Origin: a virus
Virus record (IMG/VR): IMGVR_UViG_3300044835_000117
Coordinates: 1-28,091 of that record
DNA length: 28,091 nucleotides
Strand: one strand, 5' to 3'
Positions 1-25,029 of the stretch are shown here, one piece after another. The notes beneath the pieces were generated by a model. That model worked only from the letters and a program-made list of their open reading frames with translations, was not told where the DNA came from and did not search any database. Position numbers and translations under genes: made by a program. Within the stretch, counting starts at the first letter, position 1. Each line of letters opens with the position of its first letter.

Positions 1-3000
1 AGCCATTGATCTCATCATTCCAGAGAGTCGTCACGATATTTTTGATAAAGTTGATGGCGTCGGTGATATTGGATGTTAGATTATTCCATCCAGTACGCAC
101 GACGGACACAATGGCATTCATGGCAGTTTCAAGGAATGTGCGAATCTGTGTCCAGTGTTGGATGATGAGCACAACAATGAGCCCGATAGGACCAAGGATG
201 ACGGCAAGGAGAAGCAATGCTGCTCCCTTGGCAACGTTGACGATAAATGCCCACGCGTTTTGCAGGAATGATTTTACTCCGTTAAATACGTCAGTAAAGA
301 CTTGACCGACTTTTCGGACCGCTGGCGTAATCCATGATACGAAGCCCTGCCAAGCTCCTTGAAGGAAAGCGACAACCTGTTTCCAGTGTGTAACGAGAAG
401 ATAGATGCCCACAACAAGCAAGGCGACAACGGCAATGATCAGAAGTATAGGTGCAGCTGCAGCGAGCGTAGCCAGTGCAGCTGCGCCAGCCGAAACAGCC
501 CATGCAGCAAAGCCAAGGATAAGTCCCGGAATCGCTGTTACTGCTGCGATGCCCGCCTCGACGACAACACTGACAATGGCTGGCACGAGGGAGGCAACCA
601 TGGTTGCCCCTGTCACGATGGCTTGACCTGCCGTGGTGATCAGTGATCCGACAAAGGATGCGACAATTTGAGCACCGGCAATCACCGCCTTGAGTCCAGC
701 CTGAACCATGGAGCCGATAAAAGACGCGGTCACGATGGCTCCCTGGGTAATAGCTTGAGCACCGCTTGCGATCATGGAGCCGATAAAAGAGACGGTTACT
801 TTTGCTCCATTGATCACGGCTTGTGTTCCGCTTGCGATCATGGAGCCAATGAACATCACCATTTTTCCTGCTGATGCCCATCCCTGCATCCCTGCTGCGA
901 TCATGGAGCCGATAAAAGAGACGGTTACTTTTGCTCCATTGATCACGGCTTGTGTTCCGCTTGCGATCATGGAGCCAATGAACGAGACGGTTACTTTTGC
1001 TCCATTGGCAATGGCTTGTGTTCCGCTTGCGATCATGGAGCCAATGAACGAGACGGTTACTTTTGCTCCATTGGCAATGGCCTGAGCGCCAGATGTAATC
1101 ATGGAACCGATAAAGTTTGCTGTTACTTTCGCTCCATTGATCACGGCCTGAACACCTGCCTTGATGAGTGCAGGCGCAAAGAAAACAGTAAGGGCCAGCG
1201 CCGTGTTCATGATTGGCGTGTGCCATTTTTCGAACCAACCGATGACGGATGAAATGACCCCAATTGCTCCTTGAATGAAGCCTTTTACCCCGTTGACAGC
1301 GGTTCCCACACCATTTAATACCGCATGGAGTGGTTGTGTTTTCTGGTTCCACTCCACGATTTTCTCCACAATATTTTTAATGTCCGTCACGACATTTTGA
1401 ATGAATCCACTTACCGAATGTAGTGCCGATAAAAAAGTGGATGAAATCAATTGTGCGAGATTATTGACGGCATCATGGAATGGCTTGATGTTGTTGTATG
1501 CCAGAACAAAACCTACGACAACGATAGCGATGCCAGCACCGATCAAGAGGAATGGTCCAACGATGGTCATGATCGATGCTGTAGCGGTTCCCATCGATGC
1601 AACAATCATTCCGGACATGGTACCGAAGGTCGATGTCATCGTGGCAGCGCCAGTGAGAGTCCCCTCCACTGCTGTGAGCATAGAGAGTCCGTATTCCAAG
1701 AGCGATAGGATCATGTCAGCAGCAGTACTGGCAGCGAAGTATGCCATGATCCCGCCGAGTATCCCAACCGCAACGCCGAGTGCAGCCGTTACGACTTGGC
1801 TATGCAAGAAAAACGAGATGATATTTGCTCCAATGGTCACAATGGTGGTGATTGCACCCACGAGATCGCCTATTACCGTTTTGAGTACGCCGCTTGTGGT
1901 AATCCAAGTGGTAAAAGAGGAAACAATAGGCGTGATTTGCGACACAACATTCGAAAATATCGGCAGTAACTGATTTCCAATTGTGATGAGGAGTACCTGT
2001 CCTGCTGCATTCAACCGACTCATCTGCTGATTGGCACCGCTCTGTGTGATGGTCCATGCTTGTTGTGTCTTGTCTGCCATCGCTTGTTTATCGGAAAGCT
2101 TGCCAAGGTCACTATTGTACGTGCTGATATGCCCAGCAATGGTCGAGATCGCCGCCGATGCCTGTGCCGTAGCGCCAGTGATCGCAACGTGCTTATCACG
2201 CGCCTGCTGTAGTGCATTGTTCATGTACACCACTTGCTGCCCATAGCTCATCGCGTTAAATTTTGTTTCGTTGAACGCGATCCCGTTTTTCTGGAGACTC
2301 GTTACCACCTTGCCAATACTGCCATCCATGACCTTCAAGGACTGGTCGTAGTCCGTTGTTGCGACGCCAGCCGGAATTCCTGCGGCAGTAAGCGTGGCCC
2401 ACGCGGCACCCATGGTCTCCATGCTTTGACCGTACTGCACTGATGTGCTAGCGGCTTTTGTGATATTATTGGCATATTGAGAAAAAGTAGCTTTACCTAA
2501 TGTGACCGTTTCTAGCATCTCTCCGTTGACTAAATTTGCACCAGATGCAGAAACTTTAAAATTTGCCATAACGTTAGTAAGAGCAGTTGTCGTCGTGGCG
2601 GCGTCGGTCATTCCAATTTTCGAATCCTGTGTTGCCAATGTCAGCTCATTTATGGCTGACGCGCCTGAATAGCCCGCTGATATCACATTATAGAGCCCCT
2701 CTGAGAGTGCCTGTGGAGCCACGCCAGCATTAACTGCAAGGGTATTCAGAGAAGCATTATATTGTTGCATCTGCTGATTGCTGGACCCGGTAAGTGCTTG
2801 GATTTTGTCCATTGATTGCTGAAAATTCGCCGCCATCTTCTCTGATGCAACAGCAACCCCCACTGCTGCGACCGCCGCCGCCGCTCCAACTGCCAACAGA
2901 GCGCCACCAAGACCACCTGATCCGAGAGCAGAACCAATGGATTTGACGGCGCTGATGACGCCAGCACCGCCAACAGAAGACAATAAAATATTTAATGGAA

Positions 3001-3010
3001 TGTCTGCCAT
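1..3010 (-). CDS. Tape measure protein (3' end outside window)
   Basis: Long minus-strand frame with no stop from an ATG at 3010 to the left edge, giving 1003 residues with the C-terminus missing. AGGAG lies just upstream and the ATG follows the stop of the GT chaperone directly. The N-terminus is Gly/Ala/Val rich and is followed by a helical region typical of phage tape measure proteins (residues about 60-330). Several strongly hydrophobic helical stretches follow at roughly 385-530, then eight 22-residue repeats at about 618-792, then more hydrophobic segments. Family knowledge: this protein sets tail length, is chaperoned by G/GT, fills the tail tube and takes part in DNA delivery. The order tube, G/GT, tape measure is canonical. 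At about 0.15 nm per helical residue the visible part alone implies a tail of at least 150 nm, which is an inference. No peptidase or lysozyme motif was recognised in the visible part. Confidence 0.95.
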   Translation of the reverse strand, partial: MADIPLNILLSSVGGAGVISAVKSIGSALGSGGLGGALLAVGAAAAVAAVGVAVASEKMAANFQQSMDKIQALTGSSNQQMQQYNASLNTLAVNAGVAPQALSEGLYNVISAGYSGASAINELTLATQDSKIGMTDAATTTTALTNVMANFKVSASGANLVNGEMLETVTLGKATFSQYANNITKAASTSVQYGQSMETMGAAWATLTAAGIPAGVATTDYDQSLKVMDGSIGKVVTSLQKNGIAFNETKFNAMSYGQQVVYMNNALQQARDKHVAITGATAQASAAISTIAGHISTYNSDLGKLSDKQAMADKTQQAWTITQSGANQQMSRLNAAGQVLLITIGNQLLPIFSNVVSQITPIVSSFTTWITTSGVLKTVIGDLVGAITTIVTIGANIISFFLHSQVVTAALGVAVGILGGIMAYFAASTAADMILSLLEYGLSMLTAVEGTLTGAATMTSTFGTMSGMIVASMGTATASIMTIVGPFLLIGAGIAIVVVGFVLAYNNIKPFHDAVNNLAQLISSTFLSALHSVSGFIQNVVTDIKNIVEKIVEWNQKTQPLHAVLNGVGTAVNGVKGFIQGAIGVISSVIGWFEKWHTPIMNTALALTVFFAPALIKAGVQAVINGAKVTANFIGSMITSGAQAIANGAKVTVSFIGSMIASGTQAIANGAKVTVSFIGSMIASGTQAVINGAKVTVSFIGSMIAAGMQGWASAGKMVMFIGSMIASGTQAVINGAKVTVSFIGSMIASGAQAITQGAIVTASFIGSMVQAGLKAVIAGAQIVASFVGSLITTAGQAIVTGATMVASLVPAIVSVVVEAGIAAVTAIPGLILGFAAWAVSAGAAALATLAAAAPILLIIAVVALLVVGIYLLVTHWKQVVAFLQGAWQGFVSWITPAVRKVGQVFTDVFNGVKSFLQNAWAFIVNVAKGAALLLLAVILGPIGLIVVLIIQHWTQIRTFLETAMNAIVSVVRTGWNNLTSNITDAINFIKNIVTTLWNDEING
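635..1159 (-). repeat. Eight tandem 22-residue (66-bp) repeats inside the tape measure gene
   Basis: In frame, units of the form SGTQAVINGAKVTVSFIGSM plus two residues recur eight times, at residues about 618-792, with a weaker ninth unit after them. The period is 66 bp, except for one 63-bp unit at about 840-902 whose sequence is clearly different (Trp, Gly and Lys in the middle). An 88-bp stretch is identical at 767-854 and 896-983. The two units left of 1101 also share about 70 identical bases. Identity at the DNA level points to recent unit gain or loss by recombination. Confidence 0.95.
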
Positions 3011-8385: not shown

Positions 8386-9825
8386 CTATGCAGAGCGAAT
8401 ACGATCGACTTTGGCGGCGAAGGCACCAGCTCGTAGCGCCAGTGTCATGTCAGCAATAAGCGCAAATTGTGAACTACGGGCGAGCGTCGGGGCCAACACA
8501 ACTGGTGTCATTTCGTTGAGAACAGGAATCAGCGCAAAGTCAGGATTACGCGGCACAAGGTAAATGCTGGCAGGCTTCTGCCCGGCGCTAGCGATGAAAC
8601 GTGGGAAGTCCAGTCCATCAGGAACCGCCTGTGTGCCATTGGTGTTGGTCGCGACCGTTGTGTACAAGTTCGTGAATGACTGATTAGCAATAGGGACTGA
8701 CGGTGCGCCGTTGTCGACGAATGTCACAATTGCAGCATCGCTCGCATCGTAGGCAGAGACAACTGCATAGAGGGACTCGCCGCCACTCGCAGAGCCACGG
8801 TAGACGCGGTAAGAGAGAACATCGATGACATTGAGAAATGGGTCAAGGATTGCTGGTGTTGTCCATGTGAGCGTGGCGCTCTGTCCAGACGTGGTTGTTA
8901 CCGTGACTTCAGCGCTCGCATAGGTGACGCCGTATCTCGTCACAGCCTCGACTTCGTAGTAGTAAGTGCTGGCAGGGAGAACCGCGCCGCTTCCACCAGC
9001 AGCACCAGTGACCGTAGTCATCGAGCCAACACTCTCCATGAAACTGGAGAAGATGAGTGGAACGCTACGATACGTTGCCACTTCCACACCAGCATCAAGA
9101 TAATTGTCGGCTGGCTGTGCATTTGGATCACCGTAGTCGTCACGTGCAAAAATGCGAACCATGTCTTTGTTGTAGCGCACCTGATTGGTGAGCAACGAAT
9201 TGATTTTTGTCTGCATGGTTGATGGCATCACAAAGGCAAAGTCATCAGTGAGATCCTGCGCAACCAATGGACGCACTGCATCATACAGATTGTCCAAGGT
9301 ACCCAGTGATACAACGTTGTTCCCGCCGTCCTGACGGTTATTGGTGTTCATTGCGATCTGCTGGTCAATGCCGTTCCACTGTGGGCGCTTTGATGCCAGC
9401 GTTGCGTTCGCGTTGCCCCAAATGTGCGTCATGTCTTCGAGGCGCTTCATGCTTTCGCCAGCGCCCGCTAGCTCCAAATCGTACACAGATCCGTTGACAA
9501 CGGCGACCTGCTGGTCCAGCTTTGCGATGCTGAGGTCAACTTCAGTATGCTTGATGTCATAGGAGCCAGGGACAAAGGTTGATTGCGAGTACTGAATTTG
9601 CCCTGCGCTTGGGTTTTTCGTCGTGAACTGTGCCGATGGCAATGCATTTCGCTGATTGAATTGGTACTGAAGTGTCTGCCACGTTTTCCGTGCAAACACG
9701 CGCCCCAGTGGGCTCCATTTTCTCGATGCTTCGAGCAATGCGCGGTCGATAATGACCGGCATTAATGGGGTGTATGCTTGATTCGCGCTGTAACTTTCTC
9801 GTAAATCTGCTGCTGAGACTGGCAT
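8386..9825 (-). CDS. Major capsid protein (HK97-like fold) with FN3/Ig-like insertion
   Basis: 479 residues, GAGG eight bases before ATG 9825. It follows the protease/scaffold gene and precedes the connector genes, the standard order. The N-terminal part, about 30-260, has the long helix and beta segments of HK97-type coat proteins (GPxSYDIKHTEVDLSIAKL-like P-loop/E-loop region, then VMPSTMQTKINSL). The C-terminus (LVPRNPDFALIPVLNEMTPV, then LIADMTLALRAGAFAAKV) matches the closing strands of the coat fold. Residues about 268-383 break the fold: STYYYEVEAVTRYGVTYAS and LSYRVYRGS are fibronectin-III-type strands, and the segment probably forms a surface domain. No capsid cross-linking residues can be assigned. 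Confidence 0.9.
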   Translation of the reverse strand: MPVSAADLRESYSANQAYTPLMPVIIDRALLEASRKWSPLGRVFARKTWQTLQYQFNQRNALPSAQFTTKNPSAGQIQYSQSTFVPGSYDIKHTEVDLSIAKLDQQVAVVNGSVYDLELAGAGESMKRLEDMTHIWGNANATLASKRPQWNGIDQQIAMNTNNRQDGGNNVVSLGTLDNLYDAVRPLVAQDLTDDFAFVMPSTMQTKINSLLTNQVRYNKDMVRIFARDDYGDPNAQPADNYLDAGVEVATYRSVPLIFSSFMESVGSMTTVTGAAGGSGAVLPASTYYYEVEAVTRYGVTYASAEVTVTTTSGQSATLTWTTPAILDPFLNVIDVLSYRVYRGSASGGESLYAVVSAYDASDAAIVTFVDNGAPSVPIANQSFTNLYTTVATNTNGTQAVPDGLDFPRFIASAGQKPASIYLVPRNPDFALIPVLNEMTPVVLAPTLARSSQFALIADMTLALRAGAFAAKVDRIRSA

Positions 9826-9878: not shown

Positions 9879-10325
9879 TTAGCTATGTGATGGTCGGACA
9901 GATTGGTTTCCATATTTTTGCTGGTGATCGTGAAGCATCAAACGCCCAAAGTGCTCAAGAAGCATTTCTGGAGATACGCCAGTTGGAAGCGGCTCAGATC
10001 GGTCAGCGAGTTTTTCCCAGTCAGCGCTCATCAAGTTTTCCTGAATGCGTGTGCGGCGAGTGCGTGGGCTGTCAGTAAGTGGCTGCTGCTCGTTTGTATT
10101 GCTCTCGACAAGCGTCTTACGTTGTGCTCGTGGTGCCACTGGCTGGCTCTCTGCGATCTGTTTCGCGATCGCTTCCTGCTGCTGTTTCAGCATCGCTTCA
10201 AACTGTGCCTGTTGCGCAGCGAACTTGGCATCAAACGACTCTTGCAACTTTTCAGCTTCGGTCTTGGGAGGCACAGTCGTGTAGCCTTGCGCCTCAAGAA
10301 GTGCTCTGGCCGCTTCTAGTGACAT
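9879..10325 (-). CDS. Nested scaffold protein (internal start within protease fusion)
   Basis: Inside the fusion gene, and in the same frame, ATG 10325 is preceded by AAAGGAG at nine bases, stronger than most starts in this window. Translation from here gives 148 residues: a helix (SLEAARALLEAQGY), a long coiled-coil (QAQFEAMLKQQQEAIAKQIAE), a linker and a C-terminal segment with basic Arg residues. This is the usual shape of a phage scaffolding protein. Nested scaffold genes in the 3' part of the protease gene are known from lambda (C/Nu3). A second possible internal start is ATG 10820 (MAANKATAPVPEK) with AGGAGG about 11 bases upstream. Use of either start is inferred. Confidence 0.6.
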   Translation of the reverse strand: MSLEAARALLEAQGYTTVPPKTEAEKLQESFDAKFAAQQAQFEAMLKQQQEAIAKQIAESQPVAPRAQRKTLVESNTNEQQPLTDSPRTRRTRIQENLMSADWEKLADRSEPLPTGVSPEMLLEHFGRLMLHDHQQKYGNQSVRPSHS

Positions 10326-12221
10326 TGGTTTGGTCTCCTTTGTAGGGATTATCTTGAGTGTGGAAGGCTGTTGTACGCTCTCCAGATTGTTGCTGTCGTC
10401 GTCATCGTCGGTCGGGTTCTGTGGGCTAGCCATCTGCTGATACGAGCCAACACATTCAAGGCCAAGCTTGCCAGCGTGCATATCGTGGATCGCCACCATG
10501 TGCGACTCAGCGGCTTTGTTGAACTTGCGCCCGGCTTCCTGTGTCTTTGGAGCACAGGGCATACCAAGCGCTGCTGCAATGTGGTCGTGGGTCTGACGTG
10601 ACTCATTCATGCTCGTGCTCGCCATGAGCCCATCGGGCGGCGTTGCATGGAGTTGTGGGTAAGTCTTCGTGAACGCACTGCCAGGAGTAGAATCGTCCAC
10701 GCCTTGGCTGTCGCCTGAAACCAGCGGCTTCAGAATTTGATTTGCGTCTTCCTGAGTGATCTCCTGTTTCGTTGTTTCAGGCTTCTCAGGGACTGGCGCA
10801 GTGGCTTTGTTCGCTGCCATTGTTGATTCATCCTCCTGTTCAGAGATGAGGGATATATCGGATAGATAAAAACTGTCGTGGAGTGATCCTTCGGACTCGA
10901 TTGCGGCATTTTCCAAGACAATATTTTCGATGCGTGCATCTGGAAGCCCAGGACGCGCTGTGAAATCAATGCCATCCAATGTAATGTTGTTGCCAACGAC
11001 TTGCGGGAGCCCCTTGCCCTTGACGACTTGCATCTCAGCATTGGAGGCACGTAGTGACATTGTGGGCGGGATATACCCGCCGTTGAGCAGGGATACCATG
11101 TCGCGTCCTGTGTTGGTGTCCGGGATGTCGAACATGGCATAGGCGAGATTGCCTTCTTTCCAGATGTTGGTCGCTTTGCCGCTGACGACGAGCGGGTTAT
11201 CCTCATCTGCGACACCGTGGCAAATATAGGCATTGATGATTTGCCCGCTTGTGATGGCATTTTGCCCAGTCGATACCAGTCGATTGACGGTCGTGGCTGG
11301 GTATTGGCGACCGTTGCGTGAGATGGCATCGTCGGAGAGAAAGCGCACTTTGAGTTGCGCAATACGCGCCTTGGGTTGGAAGGTCGTCTCGGCTTCTGTT
11401 GTAGACTCTGTGGTGCCATCTTTCCATGTATCAGGCAGTTGGAGTTTGTTGCGCGTGGCTATAGTGATGGCTCGTTTCTTAATGGCGGGTTGTTTGTCCT
11501 CTGGTGCATGCCCGATCAATGTGGCGGCTGAGTCAAGATGATCCTGCGTGTCAATCGGATATTTTGGACCGCCTGGTGCATCGGGCCATGCAAAATTACT
11601 GTCATCGATCTTGGCACGCTGTTTGACGGTGAGCGCCTCTTCGGCATGCGTTGGACGTTCACCGGGTGGTTGTGTGCCATGGAGATCAAAATACGTGCGA
11701 TCATCACCAACGACAAGACAGAGTGTGTCAAGATTGAGCGCTATCGTTGGAACAGATTCAATTGGCATATCAGCACTCGCGTCGATGTAGGCAAGGGTGA
11801 TGTGAGGCTGGTAAGCAAAGGAGAGATTGACTGGATAGCCACAACTGATCAGGCGTGTACAAAGACGATCACGAAGACTGTGGAGTCCCTTGACATCGAC
11901 AGAGACATAGATCGGTGTCACGTCAGACCCTTGCGGTGCAAAGCGTCCAATGCCTGATGTCTCTCCAACGAGCGAGTGCTCATCAGTGGCAAAGTGCGCC
12001 AGTACCTGCTTGAGGTTCTCAGTGTCTCCAGTGAAATCAGCACTATCTCCCAGAAACGACAACGTGATATGGAGTTGATCGACGGGCTCACCGCCGGGCA
12101 AAGCGAGACGTTGCGCGGCACTGGAGTCAAGGAAGAATGCCACCATGATGCCAGTGTGGGTGCCGTCCTCTTGGATGTGCGCTGCTTCTTCGGTTGTCGT
12201 TGAGATCTCAGTACGAGCCAT
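9879..12221 (-). CDS. 2H phosphoesterase - prohead protease - scaffold fusion protein
   Basis: 780 residues starting at ATG 12221 with GAGG upstream. (1) Residues about 20-185 form a 2H phosphoesterase (2'-5' RNA ligase-like) domain with both catalytic motifs, H51-I-T53 and H140-I-T142. (2) Residues about 200-265 (AKIDDSNFAWP..., KYPIDTQDHLDSA..., RAITIATRNKL) match the DUF6582-type module seen in phage proteins. (3) Residues about 285-440 form a prohead serine protease of T4 gp21/HK97 gp4 type, with candidate His335 and Ser389 or Ser393 in TMSLRAS. (4) From about 465 there is a low-complexity, Gln/Glu-rich, helical scaffold-like part. The order before the capsid gene fits a capsid maturation protease/scaffold. 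A 2H domain on the same chain is unusual; its substrate is unknown and its target cannot be read from sequence. Confidence 0.85.
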   Translation of the reverse strand: MARTEISTTTEEAAHIQEDGTHTGIMVAFFLDSSAAQRLALPGGEPVDQLHITLSFLGDSADFTGDTENLKQVLAHFATDEHSLVGETSGIGRFAPQGSDVTPIYVSVDVKGLHSLRDRLCTRLISCGYPVNLSFAYQPHITLAYIDASADMPIESVPTIALNLDTLCLVVGDDRTYFDLHGTQPPGERPTHAEEALTVKQRAKIDDSNFAWPDAPGGPKYPIDTQDHLDSAATLIGHAPEDKQPAIKKRAITIATRNKLQLPDTWKDGTTESTTEAETTFQPKARIAQLKVRFLSDDAISRNGRQYPATTVNRLVSTGQNAITSGQIINAYICHGVADEDNPLVVSGKATNIWKEGNLAYAMFDIPDTNTGRDMVSLLNGGYIPPTMSLRASNAEMQVVKGKGLPQVVGNNITLDGIDFTARPGLPDARIENIVLENAAIESEGSLHDSFYLSDISLISEQEDESTMAANKATAPVPEKPETTKQEITQEDANQILKPLVSGDSQGVDDSTPGSAFTKTYPQLHATPPDGLMASTSMNESRQTHDHIAAALGMPCAPKTQEAGRKFNKAAESHMVAIHDMHAGKLGLECVGSYQQMASPQNPTDDDDDSNNLESVQQPSTLKIIPTKETKPMSLEAARALLEAQGYTTVPPKTEAEKLQESFDAKFAAQQAQFEAMLKQQQEAIAKQIAESQPVAPRAQRKTLVESNTNEQQPLTDSPRTRRTRIQENLMSADWEKLADRSEPLPTGVSPEMLLEHFGRLMLHDHQQKYGNQSVRPSHS

Positions 12222-12379: not shown

Positions 12380-12387
12380 TGTGCAAG

Positions 12388-12403
12388 ATGCAAATAATTG
12401 CAT
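12388..12403. promoter_or_regulatory. Operator-like inverted repeat at plus-strand transcription start
   Basis: ATGCAAATAATTGCAT is a perfect palindrome of two 6-bp arms around ATAA, lying on the predicted transcription start of the plus block. The same half-site ATGCAA occurs at 12358-12363, inside the minus-strand -35. This spacing suggests a shared regulator contacting both promoters. No regulator gene is recognised in the window. Confidence 0.4.
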
Positions 12404-12428
12404 TATGAGAAACAGAGGAGAGATTCAA

Positions 12429-12737
12429 TTGACACAAGATGAAGCAACTGAACTTGTAGACTACTACGAAGAGCATCGACAAGAGCGAGCCAAGATGAAG
12501 CAGGAGATAGGGATCGAGCATCCTGCTTCACACTATATCGAAGCTCTTGAGAGATACATCGAGCATCTCGAAGACGAATATGCACCGTCACAAGATGCCT
12601 GTACGATATCCGATATACGAAATGCAAGCGTTGGCACAAACATGCAGCCACTCCTCATACCGGAAACATGGGACAAACTCTTAATGGAAAGCGCGCTACA
12701 ACATCACGCTGCTCGATACACAAAGAATAGTCAATGA
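12429..12737 (+). CDS. Hypothetical charged helical protein, first gene of the plus block
   Basis: 102 residues from TTG 12429, chosen because AGAGGAG lies eight bases upstream and because the TATAAT box makes the GTG at 12381 impossible on this transcript. An ATG at 12405 is in frame but has no ribosome-binding site. The N-terminal 55 residues are strongly charged and helical (ELVDYYEEHRQERAKMKQEI, then YIEALERYIEHLEDEY). No family is recognised. As first gene after the divergent promoter it is a candidate regulator, but no helix-turn-helix is evident. Confidence 0.72.
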   Translation: MTQDEATELVDYYEEHRQERAKMKQEIGIEHPASHYIEALERYIEHLEDEYAPSQDACTISDIRNASVGTNMQPLLIPETWDKLLMESALQHHAARYTKNSQ

Positions 12738-12886
12738 AACAGCAAACTCCGCCGCCGCAGTCTAACGCCGATTGGATCGAGGCTGTCCCTAACTACAACA
12801 AATTTCCAATGATGGTCATCATGATCGTCAGTGTCGTGCTCGTTGTAGCGTTGGTATTCGTTGCGATACTGCATCAGATAAGATAG
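12734..12886 (+). CDS. Single-pass membrane microprotein (50 residues)
   Basis: ATG 12734 overlaps the stop of the upstream gene (ATGA). It has a short polar, Pro-rich head (KQQTPPPQSNADW), then one hydrophobic helix from about residue 25 to 47 (Met, Val, Ile, Leu only) and a short basic tail HQIR. Its topology is probably N-in or N-out single pass. No family is recognised. It has the size and shape of phage membrane microproteins that act on the host envelope; a holin role is possible but untested, since there is no lysin next to it. Confidence 0.7.
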   Translation: MKQQTPPPQSNADWIEAVPNYNKFPMMVIMIVSVVLVVALVFVAILHQIR

Positions 12887-12897
12887 GAGTGCACGGT

Positions 12898-13221
12898 ATG
12901 AGTACGGTAGAAGGTACGCTAGCCATCTACGGGAGATCTGTAAATGGCATAATTATCACCAAAGAGGCAGCAATCAATCTTGTGCAGAAAGCAATGGTGC
13001 AAGGGCTCATCGTCTCTTATCGTATTGAAGAAGAAACAGAGGCAGTCGGTAAGCTTATTGGATCTATGGAAATGAATGGATCTCTTGATCAGGCATTGAA
13101 AGCGAGCAGGGGATTTAACGAGGGAATGCAAGCCGTGCAGAACCTGCACTATTCCGATGGGACTGTAAGCTTGCAGCAAGCGAAAGATGCGCTGTTTCGC
13201 ATGGGTAAGGAGATATCATGA
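12898..13221 (+). CDS. Hypothetical protein
   Basis: 107 residues from ATG 12898 with AGGAG eight bases upstream; the GTG at 12889 is too close to the AGGAG. It is a mixed alpha/beta protein without Cys: an N-terminal strand region (STVEGTLAIYGRSVNGIII), then helices (AAINLVQKAMVQGLI, LDQALKASRGFNEGMQAVQNL). No family is recognised. Its stop overlaps the next ATG. Confidence 0.75.
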   Translation: MSTVEGTLAIYGRSVNGIIITKEAAINLVQKAMVQGLIVSYRIEEETEAVGKLIGSMEMNGSLDQALKASRGFNEGMQAVQNLHYSDGTVSLQQAKDALFRMGKEIS

Positions 13222-13505
13222 ACGACATGTTAACGATCGTCAACCTAAATGCCTATATCCAGCACACAGGACAGATCTTCCTTGACGGCAAAGCAGTACT
13301 GTGCATATCCTTGGATCGTACGTGTACTTTCCAAGCCAAAGGTGAGAGTGACATTATTCTTACCGATGCTCAACTAGAGGACTTGGTGAGACAGATCGCC
13401 CGTCCGATGATACCGCAAGATAACGACAATAGCCGTCGCAATGGGCTTGTGAAAAATCTAAGGATATCTCCGCTACTACGGACAGTGAACGAGGTGCAAG
13501 AATGA
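13218..13505 (+). CDS. Hypothetical protein
   Basis: 95 residues, coupled by ATGA overlap to both neighbours. The N-terminal half is beta-like (LTIVNLNAYIQHTGQIFLDGKAVLCISL). A helix follows (DAQLEDLVRQIARPM), then a polar C-terminus. No recognisable domain. The strict overlap chain from 13218 to 13505 indicates one polycistronic message with stoichiometric translation. Confidence 0.75.
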   Translation: MNDMLTIVNLNAYIQHTGQIFLDGKAVLCISLDRTCTFQAKGESDIILTDAQLEDLVRQIARPMIPQDNDNSRRNGLVKNLRISPLLRTVNEVQE

Positions 13506-13828
13506 CAACGGAAACAACATTAATCCCACAATACGCTGCATCGTTACATCCAAGCGCACAAGACATCGCTGCTGTTTTCGACGGCTTTCGTCATGCAGTA
13601 GTGGTCATCAAAGATGCATTTAGTGGCATCGCCAATGCTGTCAAGAACGCAGTGCAAACCATTGCCAATTGGTGGAAACGATATGTTACACCGTGTCCAC
13701 CTCGCATTCGTCGTCATTCCAAGCAGAGCAGAGCCTTTCTGAGTATCGTCAAGGTGACGAAGAAAAGCAATGTAATCCATGCGAAGCCTCGCAGGCGTCG
13801 TAACAGAAGAATGTTGGTGGAAGGATAA
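13502..13828 (+). CDS. Hypothetical basic protein with amphipathic helix
   Basis: 108 residues. Residues about 20-60 form an amphipathic, weakly hydrophobic helix (VVVIKDAFSGIANAVKNAVQTIANWWKRY). The last 45 residues are very basic, with KPRRRRNRR near the end and a predicted pI far above neutral. It looks like a nucleic-acid or membrane-surface binding protein. No family is recognised. The ATG overlaps the previous stop by four bases. Confidence 0.7.
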   Translation: MTTETTLIPQYAASLHPSAQDIAAVFDGFRHAVVVIKDAFSGIANAVKNAVQTIANWWKRYVTPCPPRIRRHSKQSRAFLSIVKVTKKSNVIHAKPRRRRNRRMLVEG

Positions 13829-13830
13829 AT

Positions 13831-14082
13831 ATGCAATATTCATATGCGTTAATAGATGAAATACAACAACGTCAACTCGCCTTTACTCATGGACTACATG
13901 AGGCTGGCTTATCTAGACGAGACACCTTAGAGCAGGCGTTTAAATTTACCTTGCTACTCTTTGAGGCAGAAGAGGAGAAGCGATTACGTGCTGGTGAGCA
14001 CATCTCACCAGCGAGAAAAGCACAGTTAATGGAAGAGGCACAAAAGTTGTTGAGTAAGATGTACACAGAAACGTGGGAGTAA
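13831..14082 (+). CDS. Hypothetical small helical protein
   Basis: 83 residues, all predicted helix: an ORF of the form QRQLAFTHGLHEAGLSRRDTL, then EQAFKFTLLLFEAEEEKRL, then ARKAQLMEEAQKLLSKMY. It starts two bases after the previous stop, with GGAAGGA upstream. No family is recognised. The first half could be read as a short DNA-binding-like helical pair, but no reliable helix-turn-helix can be claimed. Confidence 0.72.
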   Translation: MQYSYALIDEIQQRQLAFTHGLHEAGLSRRDTLEQAFKFTLLLFEAEEEKRLRAGEHISPARKAQLMEEAQKLLSKMYTETWE

Positions 14083-14095
14083 AGGATAATTAATT

Positions 14096-14266
14096 ATGAC
14101 TGTTGGTATGCGCGTGCTCATTTTAACAGGCATGTGGACAGGAAAAGAAGGTAAAATCATCGAAGTCATTCATAGCGACCACACCGATGATCGTTACGAC
14201 GTTGATTGCGCGCCGGGTCGCTGGTTCTATCCTTATGAGATGAGCGCAATAGTGGAGGCTGCATAA
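14096..14266 (+). CDS. Small KOW/SH3-like protein (56 residues)
   Basis: ATG 14096 with AAAGGA upstream, ending in TAA that shares one base with the next ATG. The sequence MRVLILTGMWTGKEGKIIEV... followed by YDVDC and RWFYPYEMSAI has the pattern of a KOW-type or small SH3-like barrel: a basic strand, G-x-x-G-K-E-G-K turn and closing strand. Such barrels bind RNA, ribosomal protein or nucleic acid. The fold is an inference from pattern. The 182-base gap between 14083 and 14265 is fully accounted for by this gene. Confidence 0.7.
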   Translation: MTVGMRVLILTGMWTGKEGKIIEVIHSDHTDDRYDVDCAPGRWFYPYEMSAIVEAA

Positions 14267-14487
14267 TGATTAAGAAAACACTCCTAGCATCGGCACCATG
14301 TACAGTCGACGGAAAGCCTCTTCCAGGATTCATATCAGGTAGTATTGAGATGGAGTTCATCGTAACTATTCATAGCGATACCACAGACGAAAAGACGACG
14401 CCTACCACTACGATCATCGACTCCACCGCTACCGTGATAGACGATGATACAAAGTTGTTGTCAGTGACAAGCGAGGTGAAACAATGA
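14266..14487 (+). CDS. Hypothetical Thr-rich small protein
   Basis: 73 residues, starting in the TAATG overlap with the previous gene. It has an N-terminal beta region (LLASAPCTVDGKPLPGF, then EMEFIVTIHSD) and a Thr/Asp-rich C-terminal part (DSTATVIDDDTKLL). No signal peptide or membrane segment is convincing. No family is recognised. Confidence 0.65.
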   Translation: MIKKTLLASAPCTVDGKPLPGFISGSIEMEFIVTIHSDTTDEKTTPTTTIIDSTATVIDDDTKLLSVTSEVKQ

Positions 14488-14765
14488 GTTTCGATGATAG
14501 CATTGCCGAAATCAAAGCCTTCGAAGAGGCAAATAAGCCATACTACAGGATACTTGCCGATGACGCAAAGGAATCTCTTGAAGTCGTTGAACTCCAGCCG
14601 TTTGACGAGGATGGGTACAATCAATCAAAGTTCATCACGACAGAGCGCTACGAAACTGAAGAGGTAGCAGAGCAAGCATTGTTGGCATTTAAGCTCAAGT
14701 TAGACATGCGGTTGACGCTCAGTGATAGAGCAAAGGTCATTGCGCTATTGGAGGGAAATCAATGA
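14484..14765 (+). CDS. Hypothetical acidic protein
   Basis: 93 residues with ATGA overlaps on both sides. It is acidic, with two helices (DSIAEIKAFEEANKPYY, EEVAEQALLAFKLKLDMRL) and a short strand pair between (SLEVVELQPF). No motif for catalysis is visible. No family is recognised. It sits just before the ABA-sandwich gene in the same message. Confidence 0.72.
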   Translation: MSFDDSIAEIKAFEEANKPYYRILADDAKESLEVVELQPFDEDGYNQSKFITTERYETEEVAEQALLAFKLKLDMRLTLSDRAKVIALLEGNQ

Positions 14766-15235
14766 AATGGTCGGAGATGACATCAACACAGCGAGACGCA
14801 TTGATTGCAAAGAAAGTCATGGGCTATACGCCTGTCATGTGCGATGTAGAGGGGCGTGACGAAGAGCATGTGACCGTGTACGTTACCGGCGATGCATATT
14901 GTCGTAAGTGCCATGGGCGTGGGCATCTCGGCTATGAGGATGGGCATGTGAATGCATTTAATCACCAAATCATCCCGCCCCTACCGTATAGCACTGATAT
15001 GAATGCAGCATGGCTCATTATCAATTATTTCATCGATCAAATAAGTCCTACAATCGCATGGACCGAGCAATCGATGCTCTTTGTTAATTATCTTGATGGA
15101 GAGCCAGAGGCATGGGATCGCGACGCAAGGGTTACAGAAATGTATTTTTCACTTGCTCAAATCGGATCTTTTACGCCTGAAAGAATAGGTCTGGTTGCAC
15201 TTCGAGCAGTAGGAGTTGAAATAGAATCAAAATGA
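14762..15235 (+). CDS. Phage ABA-sandwich domain protein with DnaJ-type CxxCxGxG insertion
   Basis: 157 residues. The framing pattern (AKKVMGY near residue 20, YSTDMNAAWLIINYF at 76-90, and a C-terminal RIGLVALRAVGVEI) is that of the small phage ABA-sandwich proteins, whose function is not established. Between the first strand and the YSTD motif is an extra segment with C47-R-K-C50-H-G-R-G, an exact single CxxCxGxG motif, followed by several His residues. It may hold a metal ion, either alone or in a dimer. Overlaps ATGA with neighbours. Confidence 0.75.
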   Translation: MKWSEMTSTQRDALIAKKVMGYTPVMCDVEGRDEEHVTVYVTGDAYCRKCHGRGHLGYEDGHVNAFNHQIIPPLPYSTDMNAAWLIINYFIDQISPTIAWTEQSMLFVNYLDGEPEAWDRDARVTEMYFSLAQIGSFTPERIGLVALRAVGVEIESK

Positions 15236-15714
15236 CCAACAACAATAACGATCCATTTAACCTTCTCCCGCCTCTTAATCGCAGCCTTATAGAGCCAAAG
15301 AACTACAAGGAAAACTTCAAAATGAGCAGCAATAATAATCTTGAAAACGATCCTATCACGCTGGACCCAAGACTCTCTGGGTCAACGAAACCCACAAAAA
15401 CGAAGTCAACAGAGAGCAACGATCTCGGCGCTGCCATTGGTTTCCTCGTCTGCGGAGTGATTTGCTTTGGCTTCACAAAGTACGTCGGGCTTAGTGGGAT
15501 CTTCGCATGGGGCTTCGATATCTTTGGGCTTCTCTGTGTGCTCGGTGGCAGCATGGGTATATGCATTGAGTCCGTGAAGATTGCACGGGTAGCTCATCGT
15601 AAATCAGAGCAAAGGCTGTATGGCTTCATGAAGGAACTGCCTAACTATGACCCACGCTTAAAAACAATTGAACGGCATGGCTTAGGGATGCCTCGTTTTA
15701 GAACAAAGGAATAA
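15232..15714 (+). CDS. Two-pass membrane protein, paralogue of the gene at 18964-19188
   Basis: 160 residues from ATG 15232 (ATGA overlap). An internal ATG at 15322, with AAGGA nine bases upstream, is a good alternative that would give 130 residues. The N-terminal 65 residues are Asn/Thr-rich and disordered. Two hydrophobic helices follow (LGAAIGFLVCGVICFGF, and FDIFGLLCVLGGSMGICI) joined by TKYVGLSG. The C-terminus is basic and cytoplasmic-like. The helix region matches the minus-strand protein at 18964-19188 in pattern, including the T-K-x-V-G-L-S-G turn. Function unknown. Confidence 0.75.
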   Translation: MTNNNNDPFNLLPPLNRSLIEPKNYKENFKMSSNNNLENDPITLDPRLSGSTKPTKTKSTESNDLGAAIGFLVCGVICFGFTKYVGLSGIFAWGFDIFGLLCVLGGSMGICIESVKIARVAHRKSEQRLYGFMKELPNYDPRLKTIERHGLGMPRFRTKE

Positions 15715-15716
15715 TC

Positions 15717-16067
15717 ATGGATATAGCCATCACTATCATTGTCTGTATCGTATTACTCTGCATCATACCGAGCATTGGAACACGACGCCCACGAGGATAT
15801 CGTCCAACGCGACACATTGAACATCCGGTGCCACCGCGTGGGTTTGGGAGTGACGTTGCAGGCATTGGTCAACCACCGTTAAACGAGGAGCAATACAATG
15901 AACTCCTCGAATGGATTGTGAGCCGTCAGGATTCAGTGACTGAAAGAACTTTGCTCAGTGACCGTTATTGCTCAGTTCATAAGAAAACTCTCTTGAGCAA
16001 ATCGACAAACCCACTACTAAACCGACCGCCTAATCCTGATCTCGATATTATCATCAAAAGACATTGA
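15717..16067 (+). CDS. Membrane-anchored hypothetical protein, last gene of the plus block
   Basis: 116 residues, two bases after the previous stop. A hydrophobic N-terminal helix (DIAITIIVCIVLLCIIPSI) is followed by a basic stretch (RRPRGYRPTR) and a soluble polar domain. It could be a signal anchor rather than a cleaved signal peptide. No family is recognised. The 21 bases after its stop separate it from the convergent gene at 16089-16370, and no terminator hairpin is apparent there. Confidence 0.7.
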   Translation: MDIAITIIVCIVLLCIIPSIGTRRPRGYRPTRHIEHPVPPRGFGSDVAGIGQPPLNEEQYNELLEWIVSRQDSVTERTLLSDRYCSVHKKTLLSKSTNPLLNRPPNPDLDIIIKRH

Positions 16068-18430: not shown

Positions 18431-18967
18431 TTACCCCTCACATTTTTCAAGCTCAACAGGAACAGCATCGACACCAGCATGTATCCCATCGAGCCATTTA
18501 GCTAACTGAAGAATATAGCGAGCATCAGTGAGTGCATTGTGCTGCACACCATCATGGTCATCTGCTGGCAGTTCATCATCAGAGATGCCAAGATCATCAA
18601 GGTCTGCTTGAATTTCACGAAAGTAGTGTGGATAGCCGCGGGGAAGATCCATGAACGTGCCAAAGATCTGGCAGAAGACATAGAAATCATAGGACGCGCA
18701 CCAGCCATAGATGACAGGATTGCCATACTTCACTGGGTCAAGGAACGCTATAATCTCCTCTTTGATCGTGACGATCTCTGTCCAGCCAATGCCAAGATGT
18801 GGAATAACATGCTCTGTTAGCCATGCGCTCGGATTGCCGTACTGAAGATATTCAGCAGATTGTGCGTAAAGTGTTTGTCCATCCTCTGCTATGATGCCTA
18901 TCGAGATGAGATCAACTGTCCTTGTCTCTGTGTTCTCTTGAAACTCGGTGTCCAGTCCATATTTCAT
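18431..18967 (-). CDS. DEDDh 3'-5' exonuclease (Rv2179c-like exoribonuclease family)
   Basis: 178 residues from ATG 18967 with GAGGT upstream; an upstream in-frame Met at 19069 lies inside the membrane gene and is not used. Exo motif I is D6-T-E8 in GLDTEF, motif II is D94 in GWCASYDFYVF, and motif III is H143 and D148 in HNALTDARYI. All four acidic residues and the His are present, so the active site looks intact. The size and the D-T-E-F start match the 3'-5' exoribonuclease Rv2179c-like family (PF16473 type), seen in many phages. Substrate unknown; RNA or DNA 3' ends are both possible. Confidence 0.85.
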   Translation of the reverse strand: MKYGLDTEFQENTETRTVDLISIGIIAEDGQTLYAQSAEYLQYGNPSAWLTEHVIPHLGIGWTEIVTIKEEIIAFLDPVKYGNPVIYGWCASYDFYVFCQIFGTFMDLPRGYPHYFREIQADLDDLGISDDELPADDHDGVQHNALTDARYILQLAKWLDGIHAGVDAVPVELEKCEG

Positions 18968-19188
18968 TGCTTTAACCTCACTACTTCTTTGATGTACTCT
19001 GGGATCTCGATGCTCATCGCTGTAACGCCTAGCAGTGCCAGCAAGAAGCCTATGCCGTACAGAAGCCACATAATCCAGCCAGACAGCCCTACGAGCTTCG
19101 TGGCAGACAGCAGCAGTAACCCTGCAACAGTAAGTGCAATGGCGACACCGAGTCCCTTGTCTGTATCGGTGGCTTCGTTGTTATCCAT
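18964..19188 (-). CDS. Small two-pass membrane protein, paralogue of 15232-15714
   Basis: 74 residues from ATG 19188 with AAGGAGA about ten bases upstream. An in-frame ATG at 19218 is less well placed. It has a short polar N-terminus, then LGVAIALTVAGLLLLSA, TKLVGLSGW and MWLLYGIGFLLALLGVTAM, making two helices with the same T-K-x-V-G-L-S-G turn as the plus-strand protein at 15232-15714. Its stop overlaps the exonuclease ATG (ATGA). Function unknown. Confidence 0.8.
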   Translation of the reverse strand: MDNNEATDTDKGLGVAIALTVAGLLLLSATKLVGLSGWIMWLLYGIGFLLALLGVTAMSIEIPEYIKEVVRLKQ

Positions 19189-22011: not shown

Positions 22012-25000
22012 TTATTCCTCTTCATTATCTATATCAGCCTCACTAGCTGTGCAATCGCATCTTACGTGAGCAGGTGGCACTGTGTCGCCGCTCGGTAGGT
22101 CAACGCCAATCCGTACAGGTGACGCGGCAGCATTTGCCTTACACCGGTCACATGCGTTCGGTCCAGCGTTCCAGATGATCGCGTTATGCCCTTGGTTTTG
22201 GGTCTCGGCAACAACGGCTGACTCAACGGCTGTATGGACTTCTGATTGCGCCACCATCTCACCGTAATTCTCTGCCCACGCCCCGACCTGCTTCTCGACG
22301 ACCTGCTCCACATCACTGGGATCAACGCTATCGTCGGCAAGCGCTGCATCAATGATGCTCTGAGCCTTCTCTTTGAGTTGGGCAATGATAGCAGCGATAA
22401 CCGATGCAGCATGGCTAGCAAAGTCTTTAGCAGTGCTCACAACGCCTTCTTGAGCACCTCGAATAATCTGCACGCCTTCGTGATTAGCGGCTGTCAAAGC
22501 AACGTGCAATGTGTATTGGAGATGCTCATGGGCTACCTCGTCGGGAAGAACCACGCCGCCTTTGGTGATCTTTGCGGTGGCGATGAATGCTTTGATCGAT
22601 GTGGTGAGATTCTTTTCGAGTGCAAGTTGGGCAGCAGACGGTGGACGCCAACCCGTCTTGGCTGTTTTCTTTTCGGCGAGCAGGTCTACTGCTGTGTCAC
22701 CACCTTGGATGGCAGTTTCGAAGATGGCTCTAATGGCTTCTTCGGACGTGGCACCTTCAAGCTGTACTTGGATATCATTGATTGTTCGTAGAGGGAGAAT
22801 ATCTGACTCAAAGGGACGTAGACTTCTCCGTGCCCGCGTATCACGCACCGCACGAGTACGCCATCGGATGAGTTCAGTTCCTGAAGTGTGGACGTGGGCG
22901 CTGGATTGTTTGACCTGTTCGCCTCCAGTGTCGCTATCCTCTCTTCCAACAGAGACGTGTTCGACAGTGGCGGGGATAGCGGTGTGATCTTCTTCCATGG
23001 GTTCTTCATTGATATTCTCGCTTTCTTTGTCGTGTTGTTCTGATCTGTCTTCATCGGTTTCTCCTTCATTTTCAGTGGATGTTATTGGAAACGCTGTGTC
23101 TATACTGGCATAATTGTTGGCGCTATAGGTCGTGTATGGTTGCAGATCGAGTATTTCGTGCACAGCCTGTCCTTTCTGATCTGTACCGCTTACTGTGATT
23201 ATTCTCGATGCAGGCTTATTCTCTTGCGTTGCCTGCAACGACTGGGTAAGATACCCTTCTTGCCGATTGATCGCCTGCTTGATCTCAGTTAAGTACCGCC
23301 TCTCTTCGTCACTGAGAGCAGTGCCAACCTTCTCCATACGAATCATACGCAGATGCTCATCTGCACGCGTGAGCACCTCGTCAACCTGCACAACTGCACA
23401 CTGGAGATCTCGCAGATAGCGATTGTGTGCTTCTTTGTCTGTTCCAGATGATTCCTGTGGATCATCCTGCGACTGTGCAGACGGCGTTTTGGGCTTGCTC
23501 GGTGGATTCGTTGGTGGTTGTGGTTGATCTGGCTGTCCTGGCGCAACAACAACGGGCGCAGGCGGTGGCGGCGGTGGATTCTTTGCCTTATCGATCTGCA
23601 CTTTAGTCATGTCGAGTTGCGCTTGGGCTTGACCTATGGATAGTTGTGACTGCTCGGTTTGTTCTGCTGAGAGCTGGTCCAGTCTGTCCAATGGAGTGAC
23701 CTCTTTTGTCGTTACAATGACTGGCGTGTCACCCATACCCTTGTACTTGGTTTTGCCTTGAGCAATACGTGCTTCGTTCGGCGTCGATGAGCCATTACGA
23801 ATGCGCTTGTCTTCGAGCTCAGCTACAGCCTCGTCATCGGCGTATGAGGCAGGGTGAAGTACTAACTTCCACTGGTTAGTATTGAAGCCCTTACGAATGA
23901 TCAAGTAGTTGAACTTTTCCATGATCAACCGATCTACTGGTTTCACGGCATTGTTCAAGAAGGTCTTGGATTGTGAGTCGCCAGTCCCTGATCCCAGGTT
24001 TGCAGATTCAACAATTCCAATGCTCGCAGGAGGCGTTTGCAGATTAGAGAGCGTCTCCTGACGAACCCATTCCAACCCTTTCAGAAAGTCCAGCTCAATG
24101 GGTCCAGATGGCGCGTACTGCATCTTGACGCCATCATAGGTCATGAGTGGTATGTGCGCGTTCTGCTTGCCGGTGAAGTTCTCTTTGAGCCACAACAGGA
24201 ACTCATCGGCTTTGCGCTTATCCCCAGGGTGCTCAAAGGAAAACGGTGGTCGTGCACCCTTCTTGAAGAAGGACCGAGCCCACTCCATCATTTGCTCGTA
24301 CAACATCGCGCTGTTCATGAGCTTCGCAATGGGGCTCAGTGCTTTCTTGCTCGACTCAGGTGAGGGGAACCATGTGCGCATGACGCGGTAGGGTTCAAGG
24401 GGAATCGGTTCTGTCTGATGGGTCAGCAGTTGCTTGTACATCTTGATGTTGCCGTGATCATCAAGGTCGTACACCATCGTCTGACAATCGACTTTGTGGA
24501 GCGACTGGATAGGGCTCGTTGGATTGCCGTCCTTTTCACGCACCAACTCAATAAATGCTTCGCCGTAAATCATCAAGTCGAGGCCGTAAGAGTAGATGAG
24601 CTGCATCAGGTCTTCATCGTCATTGATGTACAGCAACAACTTCAGAATCTCGTCTCTGACACCCTCGTCGGCATCCTCACATGTTGGCTCAAGCTCCCAT
24701 GTGCCGCTCACCAAACGCAGCACACGCGCATCGATACACGCTGCAATCCACGGCATGTTGATATAGGCTTTGCAGAGCGTGTCCTTGTACTCTTTGTCGC
24801 TGAGATTATTGATGCGTCTCGCAGTGGACGGGATGCCCAGAGCCTCTGACTCATCCCATGCCATTGACTTGGTGAGTTGCCCACGCGACGAATTACGAGC
24901 CTCCCATAGTGCCTGCTCGACACGTTGGAGTGTTTCTTCGAGTTGCTGTACGTGATCTGGCTGTCGCTCAACAAGCTGGATATTGCTGTTACGATGCTGC

Positions 25001-25029
25001 TGCTGTCTTCTTGACCTGCTGCTACTCAT
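22012..25029 (-). CDS. Portal protein fused to MuF-like minor head protein
   Basis: 1005 residues, AAGGA before ATG 25029. Residues about 75-450 are a portal of the HK97/SPP1 type: MPWIAACIDARV, a GEAFIELVREKDG wing region, then ETLSNLQTPPASIGI and a clip/crown. A Pro-rich linker (PPPPPP, about 483-530) and a charged coil follow. An acidic low-complexity stretch (about 648-680) precedes WRTRAVRDTRARRSLRPFESD. The C-terminus has the MuF head morphogenesis end: SEVHTAVESAVVAETQ, N-A-C-D-R-C at about 960 and PPAHVRCDC near 987. MuF proteins are normally separate and sit just downstream of the portal, and their C-terminus is often where toxins or other domains attach. Here both are on one chain, which would place one MuF end on each portal subunit unless cleaved. 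Confidence 0.92.
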   Translation of the reverse strand: MSSSRSRRQQQHRNSNIQLVERQPDHVQQLEETLQRVEQALWEARNSSRGQLTKSMAWDESEALGIPSTARRINNLSDKEYKDTLCKAYINMPWIAACIDARVLRLVSGTWELEPTCEDADEGVRDEILKLLLYINDDEDLMQLIYSYGLDLMIYGEAFIELVREKDGNPTSPIQSLHKVDCQTMVYDLDDHGNIKMYKQLLTHQTEPIPLEPYRVMRTWFPSPESSKKALSPIAKLMNSAMLYEQMMEWARSFFKKGARPPFSFEHPGDKRKADEFLLWLKENFTGKQNAHIPLMTYDGVKMQYAPSGPIELDFLKGLEWVRQETLSNLQTPPASIGIVESANLGSGTGDSQSKTFLNNAVKPVDRLIMEKFNYLIIRKGFNTNQWKLVLHPASYADDEAVAELEDKRIRNGSSTPNEARIAQGKTKYKGMGDTPVIVTTKEVTPLDRLDQLSAEQTEQSQLSIGQAQAQLDMTKVQIDKAKNPPPPPPAPVVVAPGQPDQPQPPTNPPSKPKTPSAQSQDDPQESSGTDKEAHNRYLRDLQCAVVQVDEVLTRADEHLRMIRMEKVGTALSDEERRYLTEIKQAINRQEGYLTQSLQATQENKPASRIITVSGTDQKGQAVHEILDLQPYTTYSANNYASIDTAFPITSTENEGETDEDRSEQHDKESENINEEPMEEDHTAIPATVEHVSVGREDSDTGGEQVKQSSAHVHTSGTELIRWRTRAVRDTRARRSLRPFESDILPLRTINDIQVQLEGATSEEAIRAIFETAIQGGDTAVDLLAEKKTAKTGWRPPSAAQLALEKNLTTSIKAFIATAKITKGGVVLPDEVAHEHLQYTLHVALTAANHEGVQIIRGAQEGVVSTAKDFASHAASVIAAIIAQLKEKAQSIIDAALADDSVDPSDVEQVVEKQVGAWAENYGEMVAQSEVHTAVESAVVAETQNQGHNAIIWNAGPNACDRCKANAAASPVRIGVDLPSGDTVPPAHVRCDCTASEADIDNEEE

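Follow-up and report, generated by a model that had tools for sequence, protein, structure and literature searches.

Enzymes of the 2H phosphoesterase superfamily have been linked to phage head proteins before. Iyer et al. 2017 (PMC5512222) describe 2H domains on MuF and portal proteins and propose head packaging together with RNase or anti-signal roles. A 2022 follow-up (PMC9503650) repeats this proposal and adds that the capsid-processing peptidase can bear Nudix domains. Here we describe a 2H domain on a different carrier. The stretch analyzed, henceforth the window, is the 28,091-base IMG/VR virus record IMGVR_UViG_3300044835_000117, a single metagenomic contig, and it encodes at 9879-12221 on the minus strand a protein of 780 amino acids in which a 2H domain precedes a prohead protease and a scaffold-like region. 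As in the fusions described by Iyer et al., a member of the same enzyme superfamily is joined to a head protein; unlike in those fusions, the carrier is a protease-scaffold chain of the T4 gp21 type. A description of a 2H domain on a head protease was not found in the literature searched, supplementary files aside, and the accessible parts of PMC5512222 and PMC9503650 do not describe 2H-protease fusions, partner switching within one capsid lineage, or chains that join 2H, protease, scaffold and capsid protein. A head-packaged 2H enzyme has already been proposed in general form; relative to what these sources contain, the protease fusion and the partner switching are new.

Other described systems each come close to a part of the protein. 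The domain resembles the enzymes LigT and ThpR in its two HxT motifs and its fold, but it is part of a head protein, and its family has a near-invariant tyrosine at a position where the residue of E. coli ThpR differs. With Acb1, the product of T4 gene 57B, it has in common the 2H fold, metal-independent HxT chemistry and a TPHITLSY stretch, whereas Acb1 is a small stand-alone protein that is more distant by fold and profile and has two base-stacking residues that the present family lacks. The protease half folds nearest to T4 gp21 (MEROPS S77; structure 5JBL), and its gene immediately precedes that of the major capsid protein; unlike gp21, the window protein begins with a 2H domain and a DUF6582 module and ends in a fused scaffold. 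Gp18 of Arthrobacter phage Laroye (PHROG_14859; L002:5890-7011) likewise joins a 2H domain, at its N-terminus, to a capsid protease domain further along the chain, but this protease is of the XkdF (S78_2) type (Pfam 1.9e-14), not S77, and the fused scaffold is absent.

The fusion protein and its 2H domain

The fusion is one open reading frame (ORF), as the original prediction, made by a model from the sequence alone, had noted; it lies on the minus strand, with its ATG at 12221, its stop at 9879 and no internal stops. Its four parts, all on the minus strand, are a 2H phosphoesterase domain (residues 21-182; 11676-12161), a DUF6582-like module (residues 204-259; 11445-11612), a protease core of the S77, T4 gp21 type (residues 281-460; 10842-11381) and a scaffold-like C-terminal region (residues 461-780; 9882-10841). 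A locus search with the whole protein yielded no relative. The same four parts in the same order, followed by a homologous capsid gene, were present in a protein of 793 residues encoded by L091, a contig of a second metagenome. The two fusion proteins are 65% identical overall and 61% identical within the 2H domain, for which the ratio of nonsynonymous to synonymous substitution rates (dN/dS) was ∼0.1, a rough figure with dS near saturation. Even so, amino-acid change in the 2H domain is strongly constrained.

The 2H domain matched the Pfam families 2_5_RNA_ligase2 (2.9e-9) and LigT_PEase (2.8e-6), both above cut-off, as well as PHROG_14859 (2e-30). Its two HxT motifs, H51-I52-T53 (12063-12071) and H140-I141-T142 (11796-11804), are intact, lie exactly where they had been predicted and are spaced as the 2H superfamily requires (∼70-90 residues). 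H51, T53 and H140 were present in 80 of 80 aligned relatives, and T142 in 77 of the 80, with cysteine in the remainder. An AlphaFold2 model of the domain had a mean predicted local distance difference test score (pLDDT) of 90.8, with values mostly between 93 and 98 in the core. Foldseek matched this model to the bilobal alpha/beta 2H fold, with E-values of 1.6e-9 for 5H7E, a cyclic phosphodiesterase (CPDase), and 1.8e-7 for LigT, and in the predicted structure the fold comparison places both HxT motifs within the 2H fold. The closest solved folds (5H7E, 1IUH and 5LDM) are bacterial 2',3'-cyclic phosphodiesterases/LigT, with query template modelling (TM) scores of 0.54-0.65 for the top matches, followed by viral 2'-5' phosphodiesterases, Usb1 and Acb1 at 0.41-0.45. 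The cut-off of the NCBIfam model 2_5_ligase (TIGR02258, the ThpR/LigT equivalog) was not reached (35.5 versus 65.7 bits). With activity predicted from the fold and the conserved tetrad, the domain is best read as a catalytically intact LigT-like phosphoesterase, and by the predicted structure its nearest kin are the RNA 2',3'-cyclic phosphodiesterases (LigT/ThpR), with Acb1 farther away.

The domain had originally been likened to the Acb1 type. The comparison with known folds did not support this: the confidently predicted 2H fold was near LigT/CPDase, and Acb1 was more distant. If the 2H domain were an Acb1-type enzyme, it would hydrolyze cyclic di- or trinucleotide alarm signals and thereby act against the cyclic-oligonucleotide-based anti-phage signaling system (CBASS), whose signals Acb1 degrades (PMC9117128). 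Several family members do match Pfam Acb1 (PF23474) weakly (best 7.1e-6), and T4 Acb1 and the 2H family, whose signature is TGxMVA...GGEP...LHxTL...TPHITLAY, have a TG-x-x-VA N-terminus and a TPHITL(A/S)Y stretch in common; in addition, Acb1 W74 is close to the conserved aromatic F94 of the family. The window protein itself, however, did not match Pfam Acb1 up to an E-value of 1, and LigT/CPDase was nearer both by fold (query TM 0.65) and by profile (the top-scoring enzymes of archaea and bacteria at 7e-12, Acb1 at 5e-4). Moreover, two of the four Acb1 base-stacking positions are replaced, Y12 aligning with M26 and F107 with an acidic or polar position, and W147 is not alignable, so the base-stacking set of Acb1 is not found here. 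We regard the Acb1-type function as rather unlikely.

The protease half was recognized less directly. It scored below the 27-bit cut-off for Pfam Peptidase_S77 (4.2e-4, 20.3 bits) and matched PHROG_207, 'head maturation protease', at 3.5e-10. Its best fold match was T4 gp21 (E-value 4.9e-4, probability 1.00), obtained with a model of moderate quality (pLDDT 60 overall); the profile of this half had no match among PDB sequences, those of the gp21 structures included, and fold comparison alone found gp21. H335 and S389 are invariant among 16 relatives and form a candidate catalytic pair. The position is that of an S77 protease, with the gene for an SU10-like major capsid protein (8386-9825, minus strand; Pfam SU10_MCP 4.6e-4; PHROG_752) directly downstream; homologues of this capsid gene adjoin the protease in L021, L024 and L091. 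The label of the scaffold-like region was based on its place directly upstream of the capsid gene, its low complexity, a coiled-coil-like stretch and homologues in L020, L021 and L024. The DUF6582-like module was sub-threshold in the window (E-value 0.06; PHROG_16160 0.004), while one family member reached 1.1e-5 for DUF6582 and L091 matched PHROG_16160 at this module with 1.7e-6. These results bear out the predicted combination of an intact 2H fold with prohead protease and scaffold on one chain.

Carriers of related 2H domains

Related 2H domains were collected by tblastn among annotated phages, which gave 300 records, nearly all of actinophages, and by scans of IMG/VR in which 29 and then 80 loci were kept; narrower alignments served as queries for these scans, as a seven-sequence alignment was too diverse. 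A joint alignment of 2H domain and protease was misaligned and left unused. A degenerate DNA pattern for GGEP..LHxT picked up four stretches (L015-L018), in none of which a 2H ORF was recognized, and a scan of genome contigs gave no 2H proteins beyond three from archaea (L048-L050), all of them distant.

Among the 92 non-redundant 2H proteins of the tree set, the carrier was a portal protein in 41, a protease in 34, MuF in 4 and something else in 13, so that 79 of the 92 are joined to portal, protease or MuF. By Pfam, Phage_portal was present in 34 members of a 40-member set, while the other 52 members had XkdF (14), S77 (2) and MuF (5). Five of the 34 protease labels were assigned by inspection, from sequence for L030, L094, L106 and L109 and from gene order alone for L032; the C-terminal parts of L030, L094 and L109 had no Pfam match. 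Three loci went a step further and carried the 2H domain ahead of protease, scaffold-like region and major capsid protein in a single ORF (L026/L027:5779-8763, L032:5836-8640 and L127:5019-7619), and the enzyme would therefore be made there at the copy number of the capsid protein. Fusions of 2H domains to tail or lysis proteins were not seen in this sample, which was drawn with head-fused queries.

Regions of annotated phages were also retrieved. In Barsten, a Gordonia phage, and Tiamoceli the 2H domain lies within the capsid protease gene, and in Mischief19 and the Streptomyces phage BabyGotBac between MuF and protease. The Gordonia phages GMA6 (L009:3737-5826) and ChisanaKitsune (L010:3770-5826) have a 2H gene of its own between the portal gene and a gene for a VIP2-like ADP-ribosyltransferase, and these two genes may form a head-borne effector set. 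Laroye gp18 is annotated as 'RNA ligase', and 'aldolase class I' is also used in records of such relatives, while Laroye gp17, annotated as 'head maturation protease', is the MuF protein. We rejected a true RNA ligase or aldolase as the identity of these proteins, which hold 2H and capsid protease domains instead. T4 57B (Acb1) also bears the annotation 'RNA ligase' and adjoins the gene of the internal head protein ipI (L144:92-911). At L046:5941-7475, a 2H domain and a head protease are apparently joined and split by a frameshift, which could be a sequencing error or a decaying fusion.

To compare carriers within one lineage, we used 15 contigs, including the window, with a portal, S77 protease and/or capsid protein homologous to those of the window. 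The 2H domain was found on the C-terminus of the portal in L020, L063, L021/L056, L024/L062, L054 and L036, as a separate gene adjoining the portal in L057 and L061, and joined to the protease in L091 and the window itself. In L051, L055, L058, L059 and L060, the stretch from portal to protease yielded none. L021 and L024 are 36-38% identical to the window in the portal, 39-43% in the protease and 44-46% in the capsid protein. In a tree of the 2H domains, the window and L091 formed a pair (support 99) nested in a group whose members are mostly fused to portals (11 of 15 rows; support 89), with L076 nearest to the pair (support 84). The best tree needed nine switches between portal and protease, although strongly supported branches force only two changes per label. 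The 2H domain thus changes its carrier, and the protease is not special as a partner: in sister phages whose portal, protease and capsid are homologous to those of the window, the domain is on the portal or is its own gene, and the meaning that had been given to its link with the protease is not supported. Since the domain can be on the portal, in its own gene, on the protease or absent within one lineage, it behaves as separable cargo and not as a part of the assembly machinery.

Packaging, cleavage and competing explanations

Four observations, namely the fusion itself, the predicted fold, the conserved catalytic tetrad and the variety of head partners, underlie the explanation that we favor and consider probable: the 2H domain would be a LigT-like cargo enzyme that enters the prohead through covalent attachment to one of the inner head components, here the S77 protease-scaffold chain. 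The main argument for packaging is that location inside the prohead is the property common to the carriers. The fusion protein would assemble inside the prohead together with the scaffold core, and the mature head would retain the compact 2H domain, alone or together with the protease, so that the domain enters the cell alongside the DNA; alternatively, it would act late in the producing cell. Its likeliest chemistry would be the opening of 2',3'-cyclic phosphates or the cutting of 2'-5' or 3'-5' linkages in small RNA ends or signal nucleotides, and this action may counter a nucleotide-signalled or RNA-cutting host defense. A portal consists of twelve subunits, and the choice of partner would set the copy number, with 12 portal subunits against the ∼55 protease copies of T4. 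T4 offers a precedent: its head takes up ∼55 copies of gp21 and carries internal proteins, a targeting tag has been used to direct foreign proteins to its core (PMC9958956), and two proteins that it injects, Ip2 and Ip3, block type IV restriction (PMC12373910). That a 2H enzyme associated with the head acts on nucleotides, an idea that had also been part of the original prediction, is supported by the repeated fusion to prohead-internal proteins seen among these sequences and has been published in general form (PMC5512222).

Several points weigh against this cargo explanation. The search motifs were derived from head-fused members, which biases the sample, and stand-alone relatives exist, with L006, L037, L120, L125 and L136 not shown to adjoin head genes. 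In T4, gp21 breaks the core down into peptides, which exit the head (PMC9958956), and cargo on a protease could therefore be lost. No T4-like cut site separates the 2H domain from the protease, and virion proteomics, an enzyme assay or a phenotype for 2H fusions was not found in the literature searched.

Some of these points speak for an enzyme that acts only in the producing cell, where fusion to a head protein would ensure late, high expression and the 2H domain would heal cleaved RNA or remove signals during the assembly of new virions but would not be delivered. Beyond the stand-alone relatives and the large-scale degradation of T4 core proteins (PMC9958956), such a role is suggested by the fold, which is nearest to RNA 2',3'-cyclic phosphodiesterases that act on RNA ends. 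Expression alone, however, would not favor partners inside the prohead, yet nearly all fusion partners in the sample are portal, MuF, protease or protease-scaffold-capsid chains. We therefore consider action confined to the producing cell improbable but not negligible.

According to the original prediction, the protease may free the 2H domain during maturation, and the DUF6582 module could be the hinge at which it is cut, so that assembly would switch on the activity. T4 gp21 is activated by self-cleavage of N-terminal residues that block its active site and then degrades the core (PMC9958956), and because it loses its first residues in this way, release of an N-terminal part is conceivable here as well; the low-pLDDT linkers that flank the DUF6582-like module on both sides are likely flexible. 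Against such a hinge, the linkers around the module show large indels between the window and L091, and 2H-portal fusions need no link to a protease. The T4-like cleavage motif [LIMV]xE, used here as a guide, may not apply to the phage of the window. With this guide, no site was found between the 2H domain and the protease in the window or L091, whereas the sites that the two share are found immediately behind the protease and within the scaffold (461, 643, 661, 706 and 728 in the window protein). If the specificity is T4-like, the expected cleavage product would keep the 2H domain attached to the protease, and a freed 2H domain is not indicated, since the T4-like cut site between the two is absent. 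The module as a 2H-specific hinge was rejected because it occurs without a 2H domain, at the start of the proteases of L021 and L023. Release of the domain by the protease is accordingly doubtful.

Less probable by far is a non-catalytic 2H domain that serves as an N-terminal prodomain, or as an RNA- or DNA-binding module that aids assembly or keeps the protease inactive. The domain does precede the protease core, at the place taken by the inhibitory peptide in T4 gp21, but the catalytic H, T and H are invariant and the second T nearly so among the 80 aligned relatives, and sister phages have proteases without a 2H domain, some of them showing none from portal to protease. An assembly chimera or chance join, conceivable for a single metagenomic contig, is refuted by L091, which comes from another metagenome, shows these four parts in the same order and is 65% identical.

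Returning to the cargo explanation, a broader version of it is tentative, and we hold it to be somewhat less likely than not to apply in full: a widespread phage 2H family may be loaded by fusion to any available inner head protein, be it portal, MuF, one of several prohead proteases or a protease-scaffold-capsid chain. It would then persist in the maturing head and reach the cell together with the DNA, there to erase nucleotide alarms or heal cut RNA at the immediate-early stage, and swapping of the carrier would tune the dose per virion.

Genome setting and significance

The genes of the window's minus strand follow the order small terminase, large terminase, portal-MuF fusion, a long run of small genes, 2H-protease fusion, major capsid gene, connector genes and a tape measure gene that runs off the end of the window. 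The large terminase subunit (25045-26454; Pfam Terminase_6N 4.3e-20) is 75% identical to that of L023. The portal-MuF fusion (22012-25029; Pfam Phage_portal 9.5e-27) has no 2H domain, which in sister phages is borne by the portal C-terminus instead. An Rv2179c-like 3'-5' exoribonuclease gene is located in the portal-protease interval of both the window (18431-19069, minus strand) and L059 (5894-6508), and thus represents a second RNA enzyme within the head-gene interval of these two contigs. Also between portal and protease, at 12381-16067, a cluster of small ORFs lies on the plus strand, opposite to the head genes; one of them (14762-15235) weakly matches a phage ABA sandwich domain. The tape measure ORF (2-3010, minus strand) holds a tandem repeat of 66 bp (22 residues) in ∼6.8 copies at 707-1151.

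The carrier switch within one capsid lineage amounts to a natural experiment in which the cargo was kept and the vehicle changed. For the annotation of actinophages, the findings mean that the label 'RNA ligase' can conceal a protein that combines a 2H enzyme with a capsid protease, and since the family is present in cultured actinophages (Laroye gp18, Barsten gp17 and BabyGotBac gp11 among them), the proposal of a head-borne cargo is testable. If the 2H domain is truly carried in the head, the phage would disarm a nucleotide- or RNA-based defense before any phage gene is expressed.

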